Shown here: one piece after another, positions 5 through 11,876 of the stretch
Layout of the letters: every line of letters begins with the position of its first letter
Numbering within the stretch: position 1 is the stretch's first letter
Source of the DNA: Gallionella sp.
GTDB lineage: Bacteria > Pseudomonadota > Gammaproteobacteria > Burkholderiales > Gallionellaceae
DNA: 64,000 nucleotides
Assembly (NCBI GenBank): GCA_028699065.1
Contig: JAQVVH010000003.1
Location: forward strand, 1-64,000
Reading direction: 5' to 3'
Translations under genes and position numbers: made by a program
The notes under the pieces: model-generated
The model's database searches: none
Seen by the model: only the letters and a program-made list of their open reading frames with translations
What the model was told of the DNA's origin: nothing

Positions 5-120
5 TGTCTGACGACCATAGCAAGTTGGAACCACCCCTTCCCATCCCGAACAGGACCGTGAAACAACTCCGCGCCGATGATAGTGTGGATTACCCATGTG
101 AAAGTAGGTCATCGTCAGAC
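5..120 (+). rRNA. rrf: 5S ribosomal RNA
   Basis: Complete 5S rRNA at the left edge. The 5' strand TGTCTGACGA pairs with the 3' strand TCGTCAGAC to form the terminal helix, and the interior carries the usual betaproteobacterial 5S sequence (AACCACCCCTTCCCATCCC, GAACAGGACCGTGAAAC). It is the last gene of an rRNA operon whose 16S and 23S genes must lie to the left of the window. The exact ends are uncertain by a few bases. Confidence 0.95.
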
Positions 121-2031: not shown

Positions 2032-3204
2032 CTATTTAGAAGCCAGCCACGGCATGGGGTCCAGCGGTTTGCTCTTGTGGCGGAGCTCGAAGTATAAACC
2101 GGAATTCTCGTTGCCGCCGCTGTTCCCCACCGTGGCCAGGGTGTCGCCACCGTGGAGTTCGTCCCCCACTTGTTTGTAGAGAGTCTCGTTGTTGCCGTAA
2201 AGGCTCATGTAGCCGTCGCCGTGGTCCAAAATCAACAAGTTGCCGAATCCGCGCAACCAGTCGGCAAAGACAACCCGCCCGGCAGCGATGGCTTTAACGG
2301 ATTGCCCGGCCGCCGCTTTCAGAAACAGGCCTTTCCAGGGGAGGTTGCTTTCGGGGCGCGCACTGCCAAAGCGGTTGGTGATGTCGCCCCGTACGGGCAG
2401 GGCCAGCTTTCCGCGCAAATTTCCAAAAGGTTTGCCATCAAACTTGCTATCCGGTAATTCATCGTTGCGAAACAGGCTACGCGATTTGGGTTTTTCCAGC
2501 ATGGCGGTCAGTTTCTCGACCAGCTGCGACAGGCGGTCCTCATCCCTGCGCAGCCGGGAAATTTCCCGCCGTTGTTGCTGTAGTTGTTTTGAAAGTTTGC
2601 CCAATACACTGCGGCGTGCCTGTTGTTCCGCCTGCAACTGCTGTTTCTGGGCAGTCTCTTCTTCACGCAAAGACTTTAATTCAGCGGTCTGCGCTTGGGC
2701 TGCGGCGCGTGTCTGCTTGAGTTCGGCGAGGGTTTCCCGGAGTTTTTGCAGCCAGGCTGCCCGATCACGCGAGATGAACTGGTAATAGGTGAGTTCACGG
2801 TTGATCTGGTTGGGATCTCGCGCCTGCAGCAATAAACCAAGGGAGGGGCGGCCGCTTTCCTGATATTGCCTGACGAGTAATGCCTCGAGAAGCTTTTGCT
2901 GATCGCGGATGCCGGATCGCAGATCGTTTTCGCGGGATTTAAGGGTGGATAACCGTTGATTGGCCGAGTGTTGCCGGGTCGACAGCTCCTTGAGCTTGCG
3001 GTTGCTGGTGCTGATGGCGCGCTCGGATTGCCGTAAGGCGTCGCCGGCTTCCGAGCGCGATTCGCTGGTTTTCTCCATGGCCTGCTGCATCTGGCTGATA
3101 CGCTTGCGCAGGTTCTCGAGGGCTTGCTGCTGGTCGGCGTACGTCGTACTGGCGCTGGTTAGCGCAACAACAAAAAACGCAAGAACGATTTGTCGCAATG
3201 TCAC
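2032..3204 (-). CDS. envC: murein hydrolase activator EnvC
   Basis: 390-residue periplasmic divisome factor that activates amidases at the septum. A signal peptide (about 1-23) is followed by a long coiled coil (about 25-245, rich in Gln, Arg and Glu heptads) and a C-terminal LytM/M23 domain (about 275-388). The M23 metal ligands are gone: the HxGxD position reads Trp-Lys-Gly-Leu-Phe, the Tyr-x-His position reads Tyr-Gly-Asn, and the final HxH reads Gly-Leu-Tyr. It is therefore an activator, not an enzyme, as known for EnvC. The start is GTG at 3204, overlapping the gpmI stop by four bases (GTGA), so the two are translationally coupled. Confidence 0.93.
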   Translation of the reverse strand: MTLRQIVLAFFVVALTSASTTYADQQQALENLRKRISQMQQAMEKTSESRSEAGDALRQSERAISTSNRKLKELSTRQHSANQRLSTLKSRENDLRSGIRDQQKLLEALLVRQYQESGRPSLGLLLQARDPNQINRELTYYQFISRDRAAWLQKLRETLAELKQTRAAAQAQTAELKSLREEETAQKQQLQAEQQARRSVLGKLSKQLQQQRREISRLRRDEDRLSQLVEKLTAMLEKPKSRSLFRNDELPDSKFDGKPFGNLRGKLALPVRGDITNRFGSARPESNLPWKGLFLKAAAGQSVKAIAAGRVVFADWLRGFGNLLILDHGDGYMSLYGNNETLYKQVGDELHGGDTLATVGNSGGNENSGLYFELRHKSKPLDPMPWLASK

Positions 3205-4724
3205 TGCAGCTGAATCAGACTGTGCCCCGTCATTTCCGGCGGCTGTGGCACCCCCATGATGTTGAGCAGGCTTGGGGCGATATCGCGCAGTGCGCCATCC
3301 GGATGAAGTGTCGCCCGACGTCCGATGTACAGAAATGGCACGCGATTCAGCGTGTGTGCGGTGTGCGCCTGTTGCGAGACCGGATCTGCCATTTGCTCGG
3401 CATTGCCGTGATCGGCGGTGATGATGACTTCCCCGCCAATAGCGCGCATGGCGCTCACCACTCGGCCGATGCAGACGTCGAGTGCCTCGATGGCCTGGGT
3501 GGCCGCCGCCATGTTGCCGCTGTGCCCGACCATGTCTCCGTTGGCGTAGTTGCAGATGATGGCTTGGTACTGGCGGCTGAGAATGGCAGCTTCCAGTTTG
3601 TCAGTCACTTCAAAGGCGCTCATCTCCGGTTTGAGATCGTAAGTGGCAACTTTGGGTGATGGCACCAGAACCCTCTCTTCGCCCGGATAGGCCTGTTCGC
3701 TTCCGCCATTGAAAAAATAAGTCACGTGGGCGTATTTTTCGGTTTCCGCGATGCGCAACTGCTTCAGCCCCAGGTTGGCAATATATTCCCCGAAACCATT
3801 GTGGATGGATTCCGGCGCAAACGCGCAGGGGAGAGGGAAATCCTCACCGTAGCTGCTCAGCGTCACAAAGGCTGACAGAGTGGGAATGCGAGCACGACTG
3901 AAACCGGAAAATTCGGGATCCGTCAGCGCGCGGGTTATCTCGCGTGCCCGGTCTGCCCGGAAATTCATGAATATCACAGCATCACCATCCTGAATGGGTT
4001 CGCCGCCAATCCAAGTGGGCTGCACAAATTCGTCGGATTCGCCGCGTGCATAGGCTTGTTCCAGCGCGTTGAGGGCATTACCGGCTTGGAATTGGGCCCG
4101 ACCTTCGGTGAGTAATTCATAGGCCGGCTGCACACGCTCCCAGCGGTTATCGCGGTCCATGGCATAAAAGCGGCCGCAGATGCTCGCAATTCGGCCGGTC
4201 CCCAGAGCGTTACATTGTTCCTGGAATCGTTTGATCGAGCCGGCGGCGCTTTTCGGTGGCGTGTCGCGGCCGTCGAGAAAGGCATGCAGCTGAACATTTT
4301 TCAGTCCCTGCCGCGATGCCATTTCCAGCAGAGCCAAAATGTGGCTTTCATGACTATGTACGCCCCCCGGAGAAAGTAGGCCGAGAATGTGCAGTGTGCC
4401 GTTATTTTGCTTGGCTTGGCTAATGGCTTGACTGAGCTGCCGATTGCTGAAGAACGTGCCATCTTCGATGGCGACGTCGACCCGGCTGAGATCCTGATAG
4501 ACCACGCGGCCGGCGCCAATGTTGAGGTGGCCAACCTCGGAGTTGCCCATTTGTCCGGAGGGAAGTCCGACATGATGTTCCGAGGTTTCGATCAGGGTAT
4601 GGGGATAGTCGCGCCACAGCGCATCCCAGTTGGGTTTATGTGCGGCGAGAATGGCATTCGAATCGCGGTCTTCGCGATAACCGAAACCATCCAGTATCAG
4701 TAATAGGACAGGAGTTACGTTCAT
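3201..4724 (-). CDS. gpmI: 2,3-bisphosphoglycerate-independent phosphoglycerate mutase
   Basis: 507-residue cytosolic glycolytic/gluconeogenic enzyme interconverting 3- and 2-phosphoglycerate, Mn-dependent. Asp12 (LILDGFG) and the phosphorylated Ser62 (MGNSEVGHLNIGAGR) sit at the family positions; the metal-binding segment TADHGNAEQM lies near residue 440. The reading frame opens further upstream at a TTG (4739), but the ATG at 4724 gives the canonical start MNVTPVLLLILDGFG and is preferred. It is the first gene of the minus-strand unit, divergent from the ArsR-type gene. A TAAAAT -10-like box on the minus strand (4764-4769) lies about 40 bases upstream. Confidence 0.95.
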   Translation of the reverse strand: MNVTPVLLLILDGFGYREDRDSNAILAAHKPNWDALWRDYPHTLIETSEHHVGLPSGQMGNSEVGHLNIGAGRVVYQDLSRVDVAIEDGTFFSNRQLSQAISQAKQNNGTLHILGLLSPGGVHSHESHILALLEMASRQGLKNVQLHAFLDGRDTPPKSAAGSIKRFQEQCNALGTGRIASICGRFYAMDRDNRWERVQPAYELLTEGRAQFQAGNALNALEQAYARGESDEFVQPTWIGGEPIQDGDAVIFMNFRADRAREITRALTDPEFSGFSRARIPTLSAFVTLSSYGEDFPLPCAFAPESIHNGFGEYIANLGLKQLRIAETEKYAHVTYFFNGGSEQAYPGEERVLVPSPKVATYDLKPEMSAFEVTDKLEAAILSRQYQAIICNYANGDMVGHSGNMAAATQAIEALDVCIGRVVSAMRAIGGEVIITADHGNAEQMADPVSQQAHTAHTLNRVPFLYIGRRATLHPDGALRDIAPSLLNIMGVPQPPEMTGHSLIQLQ

Positions 4725-4763
4725 TGGATAGAATGGCAAGCAGATGACAGAATATAGGGACGC

Positions 4764-4769
4764 ATTTTA
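4764..4769 (-). promoter_or_regulatory. candidate -10 box for gpmI-envC-ctpA
   Basis: Reads TAAAAT on the minus strand, followed by GCGTCCC. No convincing -35 box is seen at 16-18 bases. Support is mainly that the same -10 plus GCG-rich discriminator pattern occurs at other promoters in this window. Confidence 0.35.
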
Positions 4770-4820
4770 GCCGATTTGAAGGATTGGCGTTTGCGACAAA
4801 ACAAGAAATCGGGGGGAAGC

Positions 4821-5120
4821 ATGGCGGGGGTTATCGATCGTGAAGAGGATATCCTGCAAGCGGCACAAGCCATGAAGGCAATTGCACATCCACTGCGCTT
4901 GCAGATTCTGTGCGTGCTTGGGGATCAGGAGGTCAGTGTGCAGGATATCGTTGACCAAGTCGGGACATCGCAAAGCAATATTTCCCAGCATTTGGGCATT
5001 CTGCGGGAAAAGGGGGTGCTGGCCACCCGCAAGGATGCGAACCGGGTTTATTACCGAATCGGTGATTTGCGGACGCTCAAGCTGGTGGGCCTGATGCGGG
5101 ATGTCTTTTGCAAATCCTGA
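4821..5120 (+). CDS. ArsR/SmtB-family repressor, probable persulfide sensor (BigR/SqrR/YgaV-like)
   Basis: 99-residue winged-helix DNA-binding protein. The recognition region is seen as TSQSNISQHLGILREKGVL followed by the wing KDANRVYYRI. There are exactly two cysteines, Cys31 (LQILCVLGD) and Cys97 (three residues from the C terminus), 66 residues apart. That spacing equals Cys41/Cys107 of SqrR and Cys42/Cys108 of BigR, which form a polysulfide link when reactive sulfur is present. Classical metal-site motifs (ELCVCDL, C-terminal His/Asp pairs) are absent. The ATG at 4821 follows a strong GGGGGGAAG site and is chosen over an upstream TTG (4776). Immediately downstream lie an AT-rich nested palindrome and an RND pump operon, its likely target. 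Sensing of persulfide is inferred from the cysteine spacing. Confidence 0.85.
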   Translation: MAGVIDREEDILQAAQAMKAIAHPLRLQILCVLGDQEVSVQDIVDQVGTSQSNISQHLGILREKGVLATRKDANRVYYRIGDLRTLKLVGLMRDVFCKS

Positions 5121-5123
5121 AAG

Positions 5124-5151
5124 TTGTACGCAAATAGAATATTAGTATATT
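5124..5151 (+). promoter_or_regulatory. sigma70-type promoter of the RND operon
   Basis: TTGTAC (5124-5129), 16-base spacer, TATATT (5146-5151). It lies directly after the arsR-type stop codon and 33 bases before the adaptor gene start. The -10 box is inside the palindromic operator candidate, so repressor binding would block polymerase. Confidence 0.6.
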
Positions 5152-5159
5152 CTAATACT
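5137..5159 (+). promoter_or_regulatory. nested AT-rich operator candidate for the ArsR-type repressor
   Basis: Three overlapping perfect inverted repeats: GAATAT-N4-ATATTC (5137-5152), ATTAG-N6-CTAAT (5141-5156) and AGTAT-N6-ATACT (5144-5159). BigR-type repressors are known to bind AT-rich palindromes over the -10 region of the promoter they control, which matches this position. Confidence 0.65.
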
Positions 5160-5183
5160 CGTAAACATAGCGGAGTTTGGCGC

Positions 5184-6200
5184 ATGAAAAAGTTGTGGTG
5201 GTTGGGATTGTTTCTTGGTTTGGTAGCCTTTGCTCATGCGGATGACAAGCTGGCGACGATAGCGGTGCAGTATCGTGACGTGCCGCAGGCCTACGGTGCT
5301 GACGGCGTTGCGGAAGCGGTTCATCAGTCCACTGTCTCTGCGCAAATAGCCGGCCGGGTTAAAGAGGTCTTGTTTGACGTGGGTGATCGGGTTTCACGTG
5401 GCCAGGTGATCGTGCGCATTGATGAGCGTGAAGCGGCGCAAGCGCTTGCGGGTAGTCAGGCGCAGGTGTTGCAGGCGCAGGCCAATATGCAGAATGCCAA
5501 GGCCAACTACGAACGCGCCAAACAGCTGTTTGCGCAAAAGTTCATTAGCCAGGCCGGCTTGGACAAGGCGCAGGCTGAGTACAAAATTGCGCTCGCCCAA
5601 GCCGCGGCCAGCGAAGCGGGTGCGGGGCAGGCCAGCCTTGCGCGCGGTTATGCGGCTGTGGTAGCACCTTATGCCGGCGTGGTTTCGGCGCGATTGATCG
5701 AAGTGGGCGAGATGGTGGTTCCCGGTAAGCCGCTGATGACTGGATTTGATCCGGCCGCAATGCGTGTTGTGGTGAGCGTGCCGCAATACAAATTGCCGGA
5801 TCTGGGCAAGAAGCCCGTTGTGCGTATAGAAATTCCCTCCCTTAACCGATGGGTTGACGCTGCCAGCGTGAGCGTGCAGCCGATTGCGGACACGAGAACC
5901 CACAGCACCCTGGTGCGGGTGACATTGCCTGCCAATGAGCCTGGCATTTATCCCGGCATGTTTGTGCGTGCCCATTTCGTGACGGGCCAAGTGCGCAAGC
6001 TGGCGATTCCTGAAAGTGCCGTTTTGCGTCGCAGCGAGGTAGTTGGCGTTTACGTCGCCGATGCCAAGGGCGGCTTGCGCTTGCGTCAGATACGCTTGGG
6101 TGAGTCGCTGGATGGCGGTTTGATCGAGGTGTTGGCGGGGATCAAGCCGGGCGAAAAAATTGCACTGGATGCCGTTAAGGCGGGAATGAAGGCACGTTAA
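5184..6200 (+). CDS. RND efflux periplasmic adaptor (membrane fusion protein)
   Basis: 338-residue membrane-fusion subunit linking the inner-membrane pump to an outer-membrane channel. A signal peptide ends near Ala18-Asp19 (FAHA/DDK). It is followed by the biotinyl-lipoyl half-motifs (GRVKEVLFDVGDRVSRGQVIVRID and the later APYAGVVSARLIEVGEMVVPG), a helical hairpin rich in Ala and Gln (about 90-150), a beta-barrel and a membrane-proximal domain. The ATG at 5184 has a CGGAG site and gives a proper signal peptide, so the upstream in-frame start at 5124, which overlaps the promoter, is rejected. It is followed after 72 bases by the RND permease. No outer-membrane TolC-type gene is nearby, so the pump must borrow one. 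Confidence 0.9.
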   Translation: MKKLWWLGLFLGLVAFAHADDKLATIAVQYRDVPQAYGADGVAEAVHQSTVSAQIAGRVKEVLFDVGDRVSRGQVIVRIDEREAAQALAGSQAQVLQAQANMQNAKANYERAKQLFAQKFISQAGLDKAQAEYKIALAQAAASEAGAGQASLARGYAAVVAPYAGVVSARLIEVGEMVVPGKPLMTGFDPAAMRVVVSVPQYKLPDLGKKPVVRIEIPSLNRWVDAASVSVQPIADTRTHSTLVRVTLPANEPGIYPGMFVRAHFVTGQVRKLAIPESAVLRRSEVVGVYVADAKGGLRLRQIRLGESLDGGLIEVLAGIKPGEKIALDAVKAGMKAR

Positions 6201-6272
6201 CGCGGCCTTTCGGCAAATTTTTTGCCGAAGAACGTCTTGTCCCGCATAAATCATTTGAAACTGGACTGAAAA

Positions 6273-9200
6273 ATGGGAATTTCCGGGCGTATTGCCAAAC
6301 TGTTTCTGCACTCCCAGATGACACCATTGCTGGCGCTGGTGGCCGTGCTGCTGGGTGTTTTTGCGGTGGCGGTCACTCCGCGCGAAGAAGAGCCACAGAT
6401 CAACGTGACCATGGCCAACGTGATGATTCCCTATCCGGGAGCTTCCGCGCACGATGTGATGCAGAGTGTCGCCACGCCCGCGGAGCAGGTGCTGTCCCAG
6501 ATTGCCGGGGTTGATCACGTGTATTCCGTATCGCAGCCCGGCATGGCCGTGATTACGGTGCAGTTCAAAGTGGGGGAAGCGCATGTCCCCTCGCTGGTGA
6601 AACTTTACGATGTTGTGCATTCGCACGCCGACTGGTTGCCCTCTACCCAGGGAGTGGCGCAGCCAATCATCAAGGCCAAGGGGATTGACGATGTCCCCAT
6701 CGTGGCGCTGACGCTTTGGCGGGAAAATTCTCTGGGCGGCGGGGTGGAGCTGACGCAGGTGGCCCATGCGATCGAGGCGGAACTGAAACGGGTGCCGGGA
6801 ACACGCGAGGTCAGCACGCTTGGCGCAACCCAGCGCATGGTGCGTGTGCTGCTTAACCCGGAAAGTTTGAATGCCTACCGGCTGACTTTGCAGGATGTGC
6901 GCGGTGCATTGCAATCTGCGAATGTCTCCCAGAACTCGGGCAATCTGATTCGGGACAACCGCGAAATGCTGGTGCAAACGGGAAGCTTCCTGACCAACGC
7001 CGATGAAGTTAGGCAACTGGTTATCGGGGTGGCAGACAACAAGCCGGTGTTTCTGCGCGACGTGGCTGAAATTCGCGACGGTGGCGACCAGCCGTCGAGC
7101 TATGTTTGGTTTGGTACGGGCCCGGCGGCAGGTGATAAGCAGCTTTCAGTTCACGGTGAATATCCCGCCGTAACTGTGGCCGTGACCAAGAAACCGGGAG
7201 CGAATGCCGTCGAGATTGCTGAAGCGCTGATGGCGCGCGTGAACGAGCTTAAAGGCAGCGTGATTCCGGATGATGTACAGGTCAGCGTGACACGCAACTA
7301 CGGCGAAACCGCCAATGACAAGGCCATGAAGCTGATCAAGAAGCTGCTGTTTGCAACAGCGGCGGTGGTTGCGCTGGTGTGGCTGGCGATGGGTCGGCGC
7401 GAGGCACTGGTGGTGGGTGTCGCGGTTCTTTTGACGCTTGCGGTGACATTGTTTGCTTCATGGGCCTACGGTTTCACACTGAATCGGGTTTCTCTGTTTG
7501 CGCTGATATTTTCCATCGGTATTCTCGTGGACGATGCTATTGTCGTGGTGGAGAACATCCACCGCCGCCGCGCAATGGCGGAGCACCAGCCGCTTTCCGA
7601 CATTATTCCCGAGGCGGTGGATGAGGTCGGCGGTCCGACTATTCTGGCGACTTTTACCGTGATTGCGGCATTGCTTCCGATGGCGTTTGTCAGTGGGCTG
7701 ATGGGGCCTTACATGAGCCCAATCCCGATCAATGCCAGCATGGGAATGGTGATTTCTCTGGCGGTTGCTTTCGTCATTACGCCTTGGCTGGTTTATCGCT
7801 TTTCCGGCGCGCAACACCACAAGTCGACAGATGAGCGCGATACTCCGTTGTACCGTTTTTTTCGCGATCGGCTGGGCCCATTCCTTAATCGCGAACACGG
7901 TGCCAAGGCGCGGCGCAAGTTGTGGCTGGGCATTCTTGCTGCGGTGATGCTGGCGGTGTCGCTGGCGGTCGTGAAGCTGGTGGTTCTGAAAATGCTGCCT
8001 TTCGATAACAAATCGGAATTTCAGATTGTGGTGGACATGCCAAGCGGCACCGCGTTGGAGCAGACGAGCGGCGTGTTGCACGAGATCGGCGAGTATCTGG
8101 CAACGGTGCCGGAAGTCACGGATTACCAAGCCTATGCCGGTACGGCGGCGCCCATCAATTTCAATGGCTTGGTACGCCAGTACTATATGCGCAGCGCCGC
8201 CGGGCAGGGTGATCTTCAGGTCAATTTGCAGGACAAGCATAATCGCGACCGGAGCAGCCACGAAATCGCCACGGCTGTCCTGAAACCGGTACAGGAAATT
8301 GCCGCCCGTTGGGGAGCCAAGGTCAAGGTGGTGGAAGTGCCGCCCGGCCCGCCGGTGATGTCGCCGATTGTGGCCGAGATTTACGGGCCGGATTATGAAG
8401 GCGCGCGCCAAGTGGCAGGAAAAGTGCGCGAGACCTTCAGTCAAACCAAGGACATCGTGTCGATTGACGATACGGTGACCGAGCCGGCGCCGAAATTGCT
8501 GTTGCGCGTTCTGCAAAGCAAGGCGTCGTTGCTTGGGGTGGCGCCGCACGACATTGTGGACGCCATCGGTATGGCGCTTTCCGGACAAGACGTGGCCTCT
8601 TTGCATGATGAACATGCCAAATATGCTCCGCCGCTGCGTATCGGTTTGCCACCGGAACAATTGAGCCGTATCGATGAGGTGTTAAAGCTGAAGGTGCGTG
8701 CTCGCGATGGTGCGCTGGTGCCGTTGTCCGAAGTTGTTCAGGTGGTTGAAACGCAGCGGGATTATCCGATTTATCACAAGGATTTGCTCCCGGTGGTGTA
8801 CGTGTTTGGCGACATGGCGGGCAAGCTGGACAGCCCGTTGTATGGCATGTTTGACATCAACGGCCAAGTCAGTGGCGAAGCGCTTGATCAGGGCGGCAGT
8901 CTGGAAAGCTATTTCTTCAAGCAACCCAGCGATCCCTATGCCGGCTATGCGCTGAAGTGGGATGGTGAATGGCAGGTAACGTTCGAGACATTCCGCGATA
9001 TGGGTATCGCCTATGCGGTCGGACTGGTGCTGATTTATTTGCTGGTGGTCGCGCAGTTCAAAAGCTACATCGTGCCGTTGATTATCATGGCGCCCATCCC
9101 GTTGACCGTCATCGGCGTGATGCCGGGGCACGCGCTATTCGGTTCGCAATTCACGGCGACCTCGATGATCGGGATGATTGCGCTGGCGGGCATCATCGTG

Positions 9201-9473
9201 CGCAATTCCATTCTGTTGGTGGATTTCGTCAACCTGCAATTGCGTGACGGTGTGGATTTGCAGCATGCCGTTATCAATGCCGCGAGTGCGCGCGCCAAGC
9301 CCATTCTGCTAACGGGGCTGGCTGCGATGCTGGGCGCCTTGTTTATTCTCGATGACCCGATCTTTAACGGATTGGCGCTGGCGCTGATCTTTGGGATTCT
9401 GGTTTCGACGCTACTGACACTGGTCGTTATTCCTGTGCTTTATTACGCCTCTTTGTATCGTAAACAACCTTGA
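6273..9473 (+). CDS. RND-family efflux permease
   Basis: 1066-residue inner-membrane proton antiporter with the typical architecture: TM1, porter domain, TM2-7, a second porter domain and TM8-12. The proton-relay aspartates are present as Asp420-Asp421 in FSIGILVDDAIVVVENIHRR. This is the HAE-1-like signature rather than the heavy-metal form (DGAVV), so organic or sulfur-containing substrates are more likely than metal ions. The N terminus VTPREEEPQI differs from AcrB-like pumps and marks a separate subgroup. Its substrate is unknown. It sits between the adaptor and a DUF2892 peptide, all apparently under the two-cysteine ArsR-type repressor. The start ATG at 6273 is supported by homology of the first helix. 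Confidence 0.92.
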   Translation: MGISGRIAKLFLHSQMTPLLALVAVLLGVFAVAVTPREEEPQINVTMANVMIPYPGASAHDVMQSVATPAEQVLSQIAGVDHVYSVSQPGMAVITVQFKVGEAHVPSLVKLYDVVHSHADWLPSTQGVAQPIIKAKGIDDVPIVALTLWRENSLGGGVELTQVAHAIEAELKRVPGTREVSTLGATQRMVRVLLNPESLNAYRLTLQDVRGALQSANVSQNSGNLIRDNREMLVQTGSFLTNADEVRQLVIGVADNKPVFLRDVAEIRDGGDQPSSYVWFGTGPAAGDKQLSVHGEYPAVTVAVTKKPGANAVEIAEALMARVNELKGSVIPDDVQVSVTRNYGETANDKAMKLIKKLLFATAAVVALVWLAMGRREALVVGVAVLLTLAVTLFASWAYGFTLNRVSLFALIFSIGILVDDAIVVVENIHRRRAMAEHQPLSDIIPEAVDEVGGPTILATFTVIAALLPMAFVSGLMGPYMSPIPINASMGMVISLAVAFVITPWLVYRFSGAQHHKSTDERDTPLYRFFRDRLGPFLNREHGAKARRKLWLGILAAVMLAVSLAVVKLVVLKMLPFDNKSEFQIVVDMPSGTALEQTSGVLHEIGEYLATVPEVTDYQAYAGTAAPINFNGLVRQYYMRSAAGQGDLQVNLQDKHNRDRSSHEIATAVLKPVQEIAARWGAKVKVVEVPPGPPVMSPIVAEIYGPDYEGARQVAGKVRETFSQTKDIVSIDDTVTEPAPKLLLRVLQSKASLLGVAPHDIVDAIGMALSGQDVASLHDEHAKYAPPLRIGLPPEQLSRIDEVLKLKVRARDGALVPLSEVVQVVETQRDYPIYHKDLLPVVYVFGDMAGKLDSPLYGMFDINGQVSGEALDQGGSLESYFFKQPSDPYAGYALKWDGEWQVTFETFRDMGIAYAVGLVLIYLLVVAQFKSYIVPLIIMAPIPLTVIGVMPGHALFGSQFTATSMIGMIALAGIIVRNSILLVDFVNLQLRDGVDLQHAVINAASARAKPILLTGLAAMLGALFILDDPIFNGLALALIFGILVSTLLTLVVIPVLYYASLYRKQP

Positions 9474-9488
9474 GAACGGAGTTGATTG

Positions 9489-9701
9489 ATGAGTGCTGAA
9501 CGTGTTGTTCGAATTGTGGCCGGCTTTTTTGTGCTGCTGTCGCTTTCACTGGGTGTGGAAGCCAGCCCGTTGTTCGTGAGTAAACACTTTCTCTGGTTTA
9601 CCGCATTCGTGGGCGCCAACCTGTTTCAGAGCGGCTTTACCCGGATATGTCCCCTGACGACAATTCTCTCCAGATTCGGTGTTAAAAGCGGTTCTTGCTA
9701 A
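9489..9701 (+). CDS. DUF2892 (YgaP-like transmembrane) peptide
   Basis: 70-residue membrane peptide with two hydrophobic segments (about 8-25 and 31-48). Its core FVGANLFQSGFTRICPLTTIL matches the transmembrane domain of YgaP ([21 protein letters not shown]), including the single cysteine after the second helix. In YgaP this domain is fused to a rhodanese and acts in sulfur handling; here it stands alone. A second cysteine is the last residue. The ATG at 9489 follows GGAG and lies 16 bases after the permease stop, so it is in the same operon. The stop overlaps the start of the PglL-type gene. A role in moving or binding sulfane sulfur is inference. Confidence 0.85.
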   Translation: MSAERVVRIVAGFFVLLSLSLGVEASPLFVSKHFLWFTAFVGANLFQSGFTRICPLTTILSRFGVKSGSC

Positions 9702-11464
9702 AACACCGATTTGCCGCCGTTGATTTTCTGTCCATCAGTCTGGCGCTGGCCGGGCTGATGTGGGTCTTGCCCTTTCTGCACTATCGCCACCAGTATCCGC
9801 TGACGACGTTTTATCCGGAATGGTGGGCGGCACTGCTGGGTATTCTGGCTTTTTCCCCATTTGTGCTGCGGGCGGGCGCTGAAGGCCATTTCTCCCGCGT
9901 TCCCCGCATTATCCTGTTGCCGCTGGCGCTGGCCGGCGTTGTACTGCTGCAGTTCGCATTTGGAAAAATAGCCTATTTTGATCAGGCTTTGCTGTACCTC
10001 CTTTATTTTTTATTCGCTGCACTGTTGATGCAACTGGGGGCAATGCTGCGTGCTCATTTTGGTATGCAGCGGCTCGCGTTGTTTTTGGCCGTTGCGCTCT
10101 TGATAGGGACGGAGACCGGTGCATTGCTGGGCGTGTTACAGCATTTCCGCTGGTCAACGCCTTTGGATTCAGTGCTCGTGATGAAGGGTTCCGCTGCCGT
10201 GTACGGCAATTTGGCTCAGCCGAATCACTATGCCAATTATCTGGCGCTTGGTCTGATTTCCCTGGGGTTGCTCTGGCAGCAAAAGCGCCTGGGTGCGATC
10301 AGTACCGTGTTGTTGGCTCTTCCCTTGTTGCTGACGCTGGCACTTAGCGGTTCGCGCAGTTCTTGGCTCTATTTGCTGATGCTGTCCACGTTGTCCTGGT
10401 TTTGGATGCGGCATGATCCGCAAAACCGCGGGTTGTTTCGCTACAGTTTGATCTTGCTGGCCGGCTTTGTCGCCGTGCATGGCTGGGTTCGGCTGCCTTT
10501 CATGCAGGGCGCGGATGCGGGGTTGGACACCTTACAGCGCCTTTTTGCGGAAACGGCTTCAGGCTCGATCCGGCTTTACCTGTGGCAGGAAGCCGGACAG
10601 GTCTTCATGGCTTATCCCTGGCTGGGCGCCGGTTTTGGCCAATTCGCCTGGCTGCATTTTCAGCTCCAGCCTGAGATGGGCTTCGGCACGGTTCAAGGCT
10701 TGTACAACAATGCCCACAACTTGGTTTTTCAGGTTGCGGCAGAAGCCGGGTTGGCCGGCCTTGTCGCGTTGCTGTTGCCCCTGGGGTTGTGGCTGCGCAG
10801 CCTGCGCCGTATACCGATTGACCCTGTGCACTGGTGGGCGCTGGCTTTGCTGGGCGTGCTGGCGATACATAGTTTGCTGGAATATCCGCTCTGGTACGCG
10901 TTTTTTCTGGGCATTGCCGCGTTGCTGCTGGGCGCCCTAGATACGGCGCATTATGCGTTGTCGTTACCGCGCCTTGCCCGCGCCTTGGCTGCAGGGGTCG
11001 TTCTGCTCGGGACATTTATTCTTGTCCAGCTGCGTGTGGACTATCGACAGATGGAGCAGGTTTTGAGCCTGCGTGCGGCCTCGGCCAGTGCGGGCGCTGA
11101 AATTGACGAGAGACGCCGTAACGGCCTCATGGCGGCTTATACCAGCCCGCTGCTGTCACCGTACGCGGAATTTTTTATCAGCGGGTCGATGGATATTTCG
11201 CCGGAACGCTTGCCGCAGAAACTGGCGCTCAATACGCGGGTGCTGCATTTTGTGCCTATTGGGGGCGTGGCTTACAGGCAGGCATTGTTACTGGCGCAGG
11301 ATGGGCAGGATGGTGCCGCCCGTATTGCGTTGTTGCGGGCCATGTATTCCTACCCGGCGCAGTTTGACAAGGTGTGCGCGCAATTGGCCCATTTGGCGGA
11401 GAAGGATCCCCCGCATTTTTCCGCTCTGCTAGAATTCGCCCTTCAAAAGAAACAGGAGTTGTAA
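9695..11464 (+). CDS. PglL/PilO-type O-oligosaccharyltransferase (Wzy_C family)
   Basis: 589-residue polytopic membrane enzyme with about a dozen hydrophobic helices and a soluble C-terminal tail (from about 450). Family hallmarks are readable in order: AQPNHYANYLALG, LSGSRSSW, AYPWLGAGFGQF, NNAHNLVFQVAAEAGL and HSLLEYPLWYAFFLG. The last is typical of PglL/PilO enzymes that move lipid-linked glycans onto pilin or other periplasmic proteins, rather than of LPS ligases; O-antigen polymerase remains an alternative. No pilin or glycan-synthesis gene is in the window. The frame opens with TTG at 9695, overlapping the DUF2892 stop by seven bases; an internal ATG near 9758 is another possible start. 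The N terminus is therefore uncertain. Confidence 0.85.
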   Translation: MLKHRFAAVDFLSISLALAGLMWVLPFLHYRHQYPLTTFYPEWWAALLGILAFSPFVLRAGAEGHFSRVPRIILLPLALAGVVLLQFAFGKIAYFDQALLYLLYFLFAALLMQLGAMLRAHFGMQRLALFLAVALLIGTETGALLGVLQHFRWSTPLDSVLVMKGSAAVYGNLAQPNHYANYLALGLISLGLLWQQKRLGAISTVLLALPLLLTLALSGSRSSWLYLLMLSTLSWFWMRHDPQNRGLFRYSLILLAGFVAVHGWVRLPFMQGADAGLDTLQRLFAETASGSIRLYLWQEAGQVFMAYPWLGAGFGQFAWLHFQLQPEMGFGTVQGLYNNAHNLVFQVAAEAGLAGLVALLLPLGLWLRSLRRIPIDPVHWWALALLGVLAIHSLLEYPLWYAFFLGIAALLLGALDTAHYALSLPRLARALAAGVVLLGTFILVQLRVDYRQMEQVLSLRAASASAGAEIDERRRNGLMAAYTSPLLSPYAEFFISGSMDISPERLPQKLALNTRVLHFVPIGGVAYRQALLLAQDGQDGAARIALLRAMYSYPAQFDKVCAQLAHLAEKDPPHFSALLEFALQKKQEL

Positions 11465-11465
11465 C

Positions 11466-11876
11466 GTGCAGTTTGTTATCGATAATATTTTCCCCATTAC
11501 CATTGCGTTGCTAAGCGGCTTCATGCTGTTCTGGACAACCTTTGGTAACCGTATCCGTGGTATCAAGGAGGTGGATTGTCAGGGCGCGATGCAGCTTATC
11601 AACCACAAGCAGGCGATCGTGCTTGATGTGCGCGAGGATAGCGAATACAAGTCCGGCCATGTACTGAATGCCAAACACATCCCGCTGGGTAAGCTGGGTC
11701 AGCGGCTGGGTGAGCTGGAAAAGTATCGCGATCAACCTGTTGTGGTCATTTGCCGCAGCGGCAATCGTTCCTGCACTGCCAGCGCGCAGCTTGGGAAGCA
11801 GGGTTTCAGCCAGGTCTACAATCTGAATGGCGGTGTCATGGCCTGGCAAAAAGCCAATTTGCCTTTGGAGAAATAA
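11466..11876 (+). CDS. membrane-anchored rhodanese-like sulfurtransferase
   Basis: 136-residue protein with one N-terminal transmembrane helix (about 6-25) and a single rhodanese domain (about 35-132). The active-site loop CRSGNRS carries the catalytic cysteine at residue 96, so it should accept sulfane sulfur as a persulfide. Only one base separates it from the PglL-type stop, and its TAATG end is shared with the grxC start. Rhodanese-grxC-secB-gpsA is a recurrent order in betaproteobacteria. This argues that the gene is ancestral here and not necessarily part of the ArsR/RND block. Confidence 0.92.
   Translation: MQFVIDNIFPITIALLSGFMLFWTTFGNRIRGIKEVDCQGAMQLINHKQAIVLDVREDSEYKSGHVLNAKHIPLGKLGQRLGELEKYRDQPVVVICRSGNRSCTASAQLGKQGFSQVYNLNGGVMAWQKANLPLEK

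Follow-up and report, generated by a model that had tools for sequence, protein, structure and literature searches.

The two-cysteine sensors of reactive sulfur species (RSS) within the ArsR family of repressors, namely SqrR of Rhodobacter, BigR of Xylella and Acinetobacter, YgaV of E. coli and HlyU of Vibrio, share a fold, a size and a pair of cysteines placed in helix α2 and at the end of helix α5, and, like the family described here, have sulfur-enzyme genes nearby. According to the available passages of PMC10509353, persulfides react with HlyU, whereas peroxide and glutathione disulfide do not, and sensors of RSS cluster apart from those of peroxide. Two-cysteine ArsR proteins that respond to sulfane sulfur appear to act on resistance-nodulation-division (RND) efflux genes, among others, as remarked in the accessible part of PMC12423496. 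In Azospira suillum PS, Bar-seq fitness drew attention to an operon comprising an unknown protein, an efflux pump, a sulfide-quinone reductase (SQR) and a membrane fusion protein (MFP), which is highly expressed under H2S-oxidizing conditions, and H2S oxidation was no slower once this operon had been deleted; the passages of that report available to us (PMC5358917), in which the term ArsR does not occur and we saw no regulator or operator, propose export of metal sulfides. Here we describe an arsR gene followed by a palindrome and an RND pump operon in the first 64,000 nucleotides of contig JAQVVH010000003.1 from a Gallionella sp. genome (1.96 Mb, 10 contigs), a stretch hereafter called the window. 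We consider it probable that this ArsR is a thiol switch that controls an RND–TolC pump together with sulfur genes, a judgement that is independent of the export substrate.

Translation bears out the initial annotation in that the 99-residue ArsR contains exactly two cysteines, 66 residues apart: Cys31 in α2 and Cys97 just after α5. The protein has the winged-helix fold and the length of about 100 residues that are typical of the family. Its cysteine columns coincide with those of BigR and HlyU in a sequence alignment, and ungapped fold alignments, which pair residues 16..109 of SqrR (6o8m) with window residues 6..99 and residues 14..105 of HlyU (4k2e) with 7..98, place Cys31 and Cys97 opposite SqrR 41/107 and HlyU 38/104; the proposed equivalence to the SqrR/BigR pair thus holds by sequence and by fold. 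Identity to the two-cysteine sensors in the fold alignments is 28–38%, and CzrA is as near in fold as BigR. Both cysteines are retained in 42 of 44 orthologs by column index (L179–L204 and L237–L254), the remaining two (L192 and L193) being offset by one column but having a recognizable VFC, and both are invariant in all 15 rows of a separate ArsR alignment. In a tree that leaves out SqrR and HlyU, the 54 orthologs of the window family group together (support 93/45, 94% of bootstrap trees), separate from the branch holding YgaV, BigR, BigR-like proteins and NolR. The NCBIfam equivalog model for BigR (NF040642) gives the window protein 78.3 bits against a curated cut-off of 155, and we do not file it as BigR. 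Judged by sequence and fold, the window ArsR groups with the two-cysteine RSS sensors and represents an unnamed family close to SqrR, BigR, YgaV and HlyU. It is likely, in our estimation, that the signal it senses is reactive sulfur.

Of 24 further genomes from this genus, 21 encode an ortholog of this arsR gene, and none was found in the congeners G001, G016 and G021 (99, 86 and 81% complete, respectively). In 17 of 18 distant ortholog loci, yibN is no more than 0.7 kb away from the start of arsR. We also observe a second two-cysteine ArsR, 55–58% identical and with a conserved tail, in five genomes (L257–L261), purple sulfur bacteria included; in L258 and L261 its neighbors are, by our reading, a gene resembling spermidine synthase and one for a response regulator.

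Coordinates and profile matches confirm the reported order of palindrome, adaptor, RND permease and DUF2892 gene after arsR. The palindrome, a candidate operator with the core ATTAG-N6-CTAAT, begins 20 nt after the arsR stop and ends 27 nt before the adaptor ATG. It is the single place in the window that matches the core at ≤1 mismatch, which is unremarkable alone, with 0.57 matches expected per 64 kb and at least one in 44 of 100 shuffles; its weight comes from its conservation in relatives and not from its rarity. A sigma-70 scan of positions 4725–5260 gave one match, on the opposite strand, and none at the palindrome, where overlap with a promoter stays conjectural. The SqrR box ATTC-N8-GAAT was considered as the operator and rejected: by eye it is not in the window promoter, and it occurs exactly in 2 of 80 related pump promoters and at 3 places elsewhere.

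Those 80 pump loci are the best 80 among the matches listed for a scan with the permease, and in each we took the stretch from −350 to +60 around the adaptor start as the promoter. The core is found there exactly in 21 loci and at one mismatch in 10, compared with 0–1 and 0–4, respectively, for control patterns (reversed, everted, and with N4, N5, N7 or N8 spacers). The remainder of these 778 kb contains one exact core, and a random-window control gave 1.2% exact, an upper bound since windows over true sites were allowed. To relate the site to the regulator, we combined 20 genomes with no arsR in the fetched stretch, chosen mostly because the site is present, with 50 further genomes searched and nine loci that hold arsR themselves. 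Of the 20, 18 encode an ortholog elsewhere with 63–73% identity and both cysteines kept. Counting the site as present at ≤1 mismatch or as the symmetric variant, we find it in 29 of 33 testable loci with an ArsR ortholog versus 4 of 40 without one, across Beta- and Gammaproteobacteria. The exceptions are L018, L022, L024 and L011 (ortholog, no site) and L070, L065, L069 and L081 (site, no ortholog); six loci with no adaptor or <120 nt upstream (L015, L016, L043, L023, L041 and L054) were untestable, and L038 was left out of the ArsR search.

One point weighs against taking this association at face value: ArsR presence changes only four times on the permease tree, with few independent origins. 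With so few changes, the Fisher p of 1e-11 does not count as independent evidence, and a correction by phylogenetic pairing was abandoned, as the paired test had no power. On the other side, the palindrome survives before pumps only 56–69% identical to that of the window, those of purple sulfur bacteria included, a persistence that would be hard to explain otherwise. Fourteen such genomes contain the exact core 50 times versus 8 for the reversed control. The sole exact core of Allochromatium palmeri and that of Thiohalocapsa (4.3 and 4.8 Mb) are the pump sites; in Thiocapsa marina, the sole exact core is not at the pump, and the pump site has one mismatch. Taken together, these comparisons argue well for the link between regulator, site and pump, which we regard as very likely.

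Within the source genome, the exact core occurs at two places, once upstream of the pump and once upstream of a TolC-type gene, versus one for the reversed control. At one mismatch the control exceeds the core (23 places versus 12), so only exact matches are informative. The tolC site precedes the first in-frame ATG of its gene, which is located behind pcm, by 2 nt and the second by 20 nt; grouping of domain matches yields six outer-membrane efflux proteins (OEPs, TolC-type) in this genome, one of which bears the exact site. A third, symmetric site, ATAAGCATACTCTTAT (ATAAG-N6-CTTAT), stands between a rhodanese gene and an operon containing SQR and, by our own reading, a putative histidine kinase and response regulator. 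The looser pattern gives a fourth, asymmetric match at C10:23689, with 0 for the reversed control.

The 24 congeners contain the exact core 50 times, versus 13 for the reversed control. Behind these 50 sites lie the pcm-linked tolC (16, each in a different one of the 24 genomes), rhodaneses (8), adaptors (4), the other TolC-like gene (4), C_GCAxxG_C_C-like proteins (3), small membrane proteins (3), OsmC-like proteins (2), an SQR and a cytochrome c-like protein (one each); for the other eight we saw no tie to sulfur or efflux, and they include a P-type-ATPase-like open reading frame (ORF) identified by reading of the sequence (L136). Families were checked on representatives, namely both OsmC proteins, one C_GCAxxG_C_C protein, two rhodaneses and one TolC of each kind. 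Two of the small membrane proteins match no Pfam family; an unassigned family of ~160–170 residues, with no Pfam match in the two members tested, is encoded behind exact sites in three genomes (L130, L144 and L174). It is likely from this distribution that pump, outer-membrane channel and sulfur enzymes belong to one predicted sulfur-stress regulon.

Among 21 congeneric arsR loci that we fetched, 11 have the pump after arsR (six of them with SQR inside), six have lost the pump and kept arsR–DUF2892, and four have neither in the stretch read. All 11 pump operons carry the core behind arsR at ≤1 mismatch or as ATAAG-N6-CTTAT, a variant in which both arms have changed together (L208 and L211); in L222 a further ~470 nt precede the start of the adaptor. 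Downstream of gpsA, four of the six pump-less loci (L214, L216, L224 and L225) have another TolC–MFP–RND set (39% identity in the permease) that is preceded by an exact site, in what is apparently a replacement of the pump under one putative regulator. Degenerate palindromes with 1–3 mismatches are also seen ~92–106 nt upstream of arsR in nine loci (L208, L209, L210, L214, L219, L221, L223, L224 and L229), perhaps reflecting weak autoregulation. Beyond the genus, arsR is accompanied by site, adaptor, permease and DUF2892 in L229 and L232, and occurs without the pump in L230, L231 and L233.

The operon holds both the permease and the adaptor of an HAE-type tripartite pump. The best HAE-type model gives the permease 449 bits versus 250 for the CusA/CzcA model, both below their curated cut-offs, such that no curated pump model is reached and the scores favor an HAE-type over a CusA/CzcA-type assignment. 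TriC (6vej, which we take to be TriC), MexK and MdtB are among its best solved relatives, but are distant. There is no TolC partner within the operon; the one unlinked OEP gene that bears the palindrome is the candidate. The DUF2892 peptide consists of the transmembrane (TM) domain only, with no fused rhodanese, and is not a YgaP. After ORFs >130 residues were dropped from the 53 found, 43 remained and were aligned with the window and E. coli YgaP TM sequences; the Cys54 column is cysteine in all 45 rows. This residue could hold a persulfide in the membrane. Contrary to the initial annotation, YgaP is not the only described setting of DUF2892, as a DUF2892 gene is ~10-fold up under H2S-oxidizing conditions in Azospira suillum, according to the part of PMC5358917 at hand.

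The gene set also extends far outside the strain. Closest among the 80 loci are metagenome-assembled genomes (MAGs) of Nitrosomonadales, Gallionella and Sideroxydans; an adaptor homolog is present in 76 loci, a DUF2892 homolog in 53 and a single cluster of SQR-type flavoproteins in 16, with one partial ORF (L015). The SQR-type gene either separates the adaptor gene from that of the permease or follows the pump. In L002, the closest locus by permease identity, its product matches a sulfide-quinone reductase, presumably that of Acidithiobacillus ferrooxidans, with E 2e-174; the four members tested match the NCBIfam SQR model below its cut-off, and L007 and L061 have the dioxygenase half of Blh, under that model's cut-off. 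Linkage to sulfur-oxidation genes is thus found across loci; within the window only yibN is nearby, and SQR is ruled out as a member of the window's own operon, the genome's two SQR matches being on another contig. The sets overlap in that L002 and L209 apparently derive from one genome (SQR 100% identical), as do L007 and L205. A Thiobacillus locus (L010, ~2360–2839) has an Rrf2/NsrR-like regulator gene, by sequence reading, between arsR and the adaptor.

In 15 of the 80 loci, mostly of Burkholderiales, a different ArsR is encoded on the − strand upstream of the adaptor (L030, L036, L039, L044, L047, L048, L049, L052, L055, L056, L058, L059, L063, L067 and L069). This divergent type has N or S in place of Cys31, and its last helix contains an LCDLVC-type pair, two cysteines four apart. 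Fourteen of its promoters lack the palindrome (best 3–4 mismatches), L069 having it at one mismatch, and nine of the 15 loci have an SQR-type gene. The same pump thus seems to stand under two different putative thiol-bearing ArsR types, the divergent one being a possible second sensor design.

From cysteine geometry, palindrome, gene context and conservation, we infer binding, inducer and substrate as follows. The reduced ArsR would bind ATTAG-N6-CTAAT at the promoters of the pump operon, the unlinked tolC, and sulfur-transfer and SQR genes, with the unlinked tolC supplying the outer-membrane part absent from the pump operon. Rising RSS would lead to a Cys31–Cys97 bridge, either a disulfide or a tetrasulfide, and the bridged dimer would leave the DNA, so that the RND–TolC pump and sulfur-handling proteins would be made. 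The pump would then remove a by-product of sulfide oxidation; our first guess at this substrate is a hydrophobic polysulfide or sulfur species, or an organic persulfide. The persulfide-responsive efflux operon first proposed for this locus therefore stands as regards kinship to two-cysteine sensors, the conserved pump-linked palindrome and the SQR-type gene in 16 of 80 loci; the response to RSS and the export of sulfur stay predictions, and that the pump exports sulfur species at all we think possible but doubtful. A more specific version, in which the RND–TolC pump is a dedicated exporter that expels SQR-made polysulfide, persulfide or S8, the invariant DUF2892 cysteine feeds it sulfane sulfur, and the persulfide-sensing ArsR commands a trans-acting regulon in sulfur- and iron-oxidizing Beta- and Gammaproteobacteria, is offered tentatively, as rather unlikely in full. 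To our knowledge, how oxidized sulfur such as polysulfide or S8 moves across the envelope is an open question. If the proposal is true, it supplies a regulator, a DNA site for which any genome can be scored, and a pump whose candidate outer-membrane partner is named, and would account for the RND–SQR operon standing out in the Azospira sulfide screen.

The pump could instead export metals or metal sulfides, removing metals that are more toxic with sulfide as part of a metal-stress response in an iron-oxidizer lineage. The metal-sulfide proposal of the Azospira authors in the passages cited above, the Gallionella and Sideroxydans MAGs among the closest loci, the fold proximity of CzrA and the congeneric site before the P-type-ATPase-like ORF are consistent with this view. 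The permease, however, is better matched by HAE-type models than by the CusA/CzcA model, and the genes that recur behind the site are rhodanese, SQR and tolC. Metal sites of the ArsR family are a CxC in α3 and a His/Asp cluster in α5; with Cys31 and Cys97 as its only cysteines and no histidine in the last helix, the window protein has neither, and we rejected the α3N/α5 metal sensor as its class. Metal export is accordingly unlikely. We assign the same low probability to a general thiol or oxidant switch, with the cysteine pair sensing peroxide, disulfide stress or electrophiles and the pump serving as a broad exporter of toxic compounds. Sequence alone does not separate these inducers, and OsmC-like and C_GCAxxG_C_C redox proteins lie behind some congeneric sites; yet SQR and rhodaneses are recurrent partners, and the two-cysteine relative HlyU ignores peroxide and glutathione disulfide. 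That the palindrome belongs to another regulator, the ArsR beside the pump being incidental, is highly improbable: tolC sites without ArsR in G001 and G021, the four loci with site and no ortholog, and the (A/T)TTAG half sites that NolR also uses (in the available part of PMC8960804) speak for it, but the 29 of 33 versus 4 of 40 association, albeit of few independent origins, and the missing site at 14 of 15 divergent ArsR genes speak against it.

Beyond the pump operon (Table 1), the Wzy/PglL-type gene is probably a passenger, and it was not found in loci L006 and L009–L012. The genes downstream of yibN appear from reading of the ORFs to be grxC, secB and gpsA. A gene for an M23 peptidase (EnvC-like) and gpmI are oriented opposite to arsR and the pump genes.

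Table 1. Features of the arsR–RND pump locus in the window
Feature	Position	Strand	Remarks
ArsR-family repressor, 99 residues	4821..5120	+	ATG at 4821, stop ends 5120; Pfam HTH_5
Candidate operator palindrome TATTAGTATATTCTAATA	5140-5157		core ATTAG-N6-CTAAT at 5141-5156
RND periplasmic adaptor (MFP), 338 residues	5184..6200	+	TIGR01730 RND_mfp 201.9 bits, cut-off 94.9
RND permease, 1066 residues	6273..9473	+	ACR_tran 521 bits
DUF2892 / YgaP-like TM peptide, 70 residues	9489..9701	+	PF11127 54.3 bits, cut-off 25.3
Wzy/PglL-type membrane protein	9695..11464	+	after DUF2892 in the genus
YibN-type rhodanese	11466..11876	+	first gene of yibN-grxC-secB-gpsA
gpmI	3201..4724	-	divergent neighbor; indicates where this arsR gene usually lies

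In the open-licence literature in PMC, we found no description of the ATTAG-N6-CTAAT site or of the tolC link, and the accessible portions of papers on Achromobacter 'bigR' and Pseudomonas putida 'sqrR' contain no link to such an RND operon. RND genes induced in an Allochromatium pyrite transcriptome are annotated as CzcA-type in the part available, and we did not take them as the pump of the window. The link between ArsR and RND genes itself has been noted before, which reduces the novelty of an RND pump as the output of such a sensor: like the window, the Hyphomicrobium sHdrR study (PMC12423496) presents two-cysteine ArsR proteins with RND efflux genes as likely targets. It does so as a survey remark, and its section 2.1, the part we draw on, has no operator, tolC link or trans-regulon, unlike the present work.

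The Azospira suillum operon (Dsui_3440-3443) corresponds by annotation, in the accessible portion of the report, to L014 and L027 in gene set and in the order MFP–SQR–RND–small protein, and differs from that of the window in having SQR inside. In E. coli ygaV–ygaP, as here, an ArsR gene stands beside a rhodanese and a YgaP-like TM domain, and the TM cysteine is common to both; that locus has no pump, whereas in the window the TM peptide is encoded by itself and the rhodanese by a gene of its own, yibN. The E. coli ygaV promoter contains two tandem TTTAG-N6-CTTAA motifs with three mismatches each to the core, a likeness that is suggestive only. The window family departs from SqrR in its predicted site, ATTAG-N6-CTAAT in place of the ATTC-N8-GAAT box, and from SqrR, BigR, YgaV and HlyU alike in its likely targets, an RND pump and tolC.
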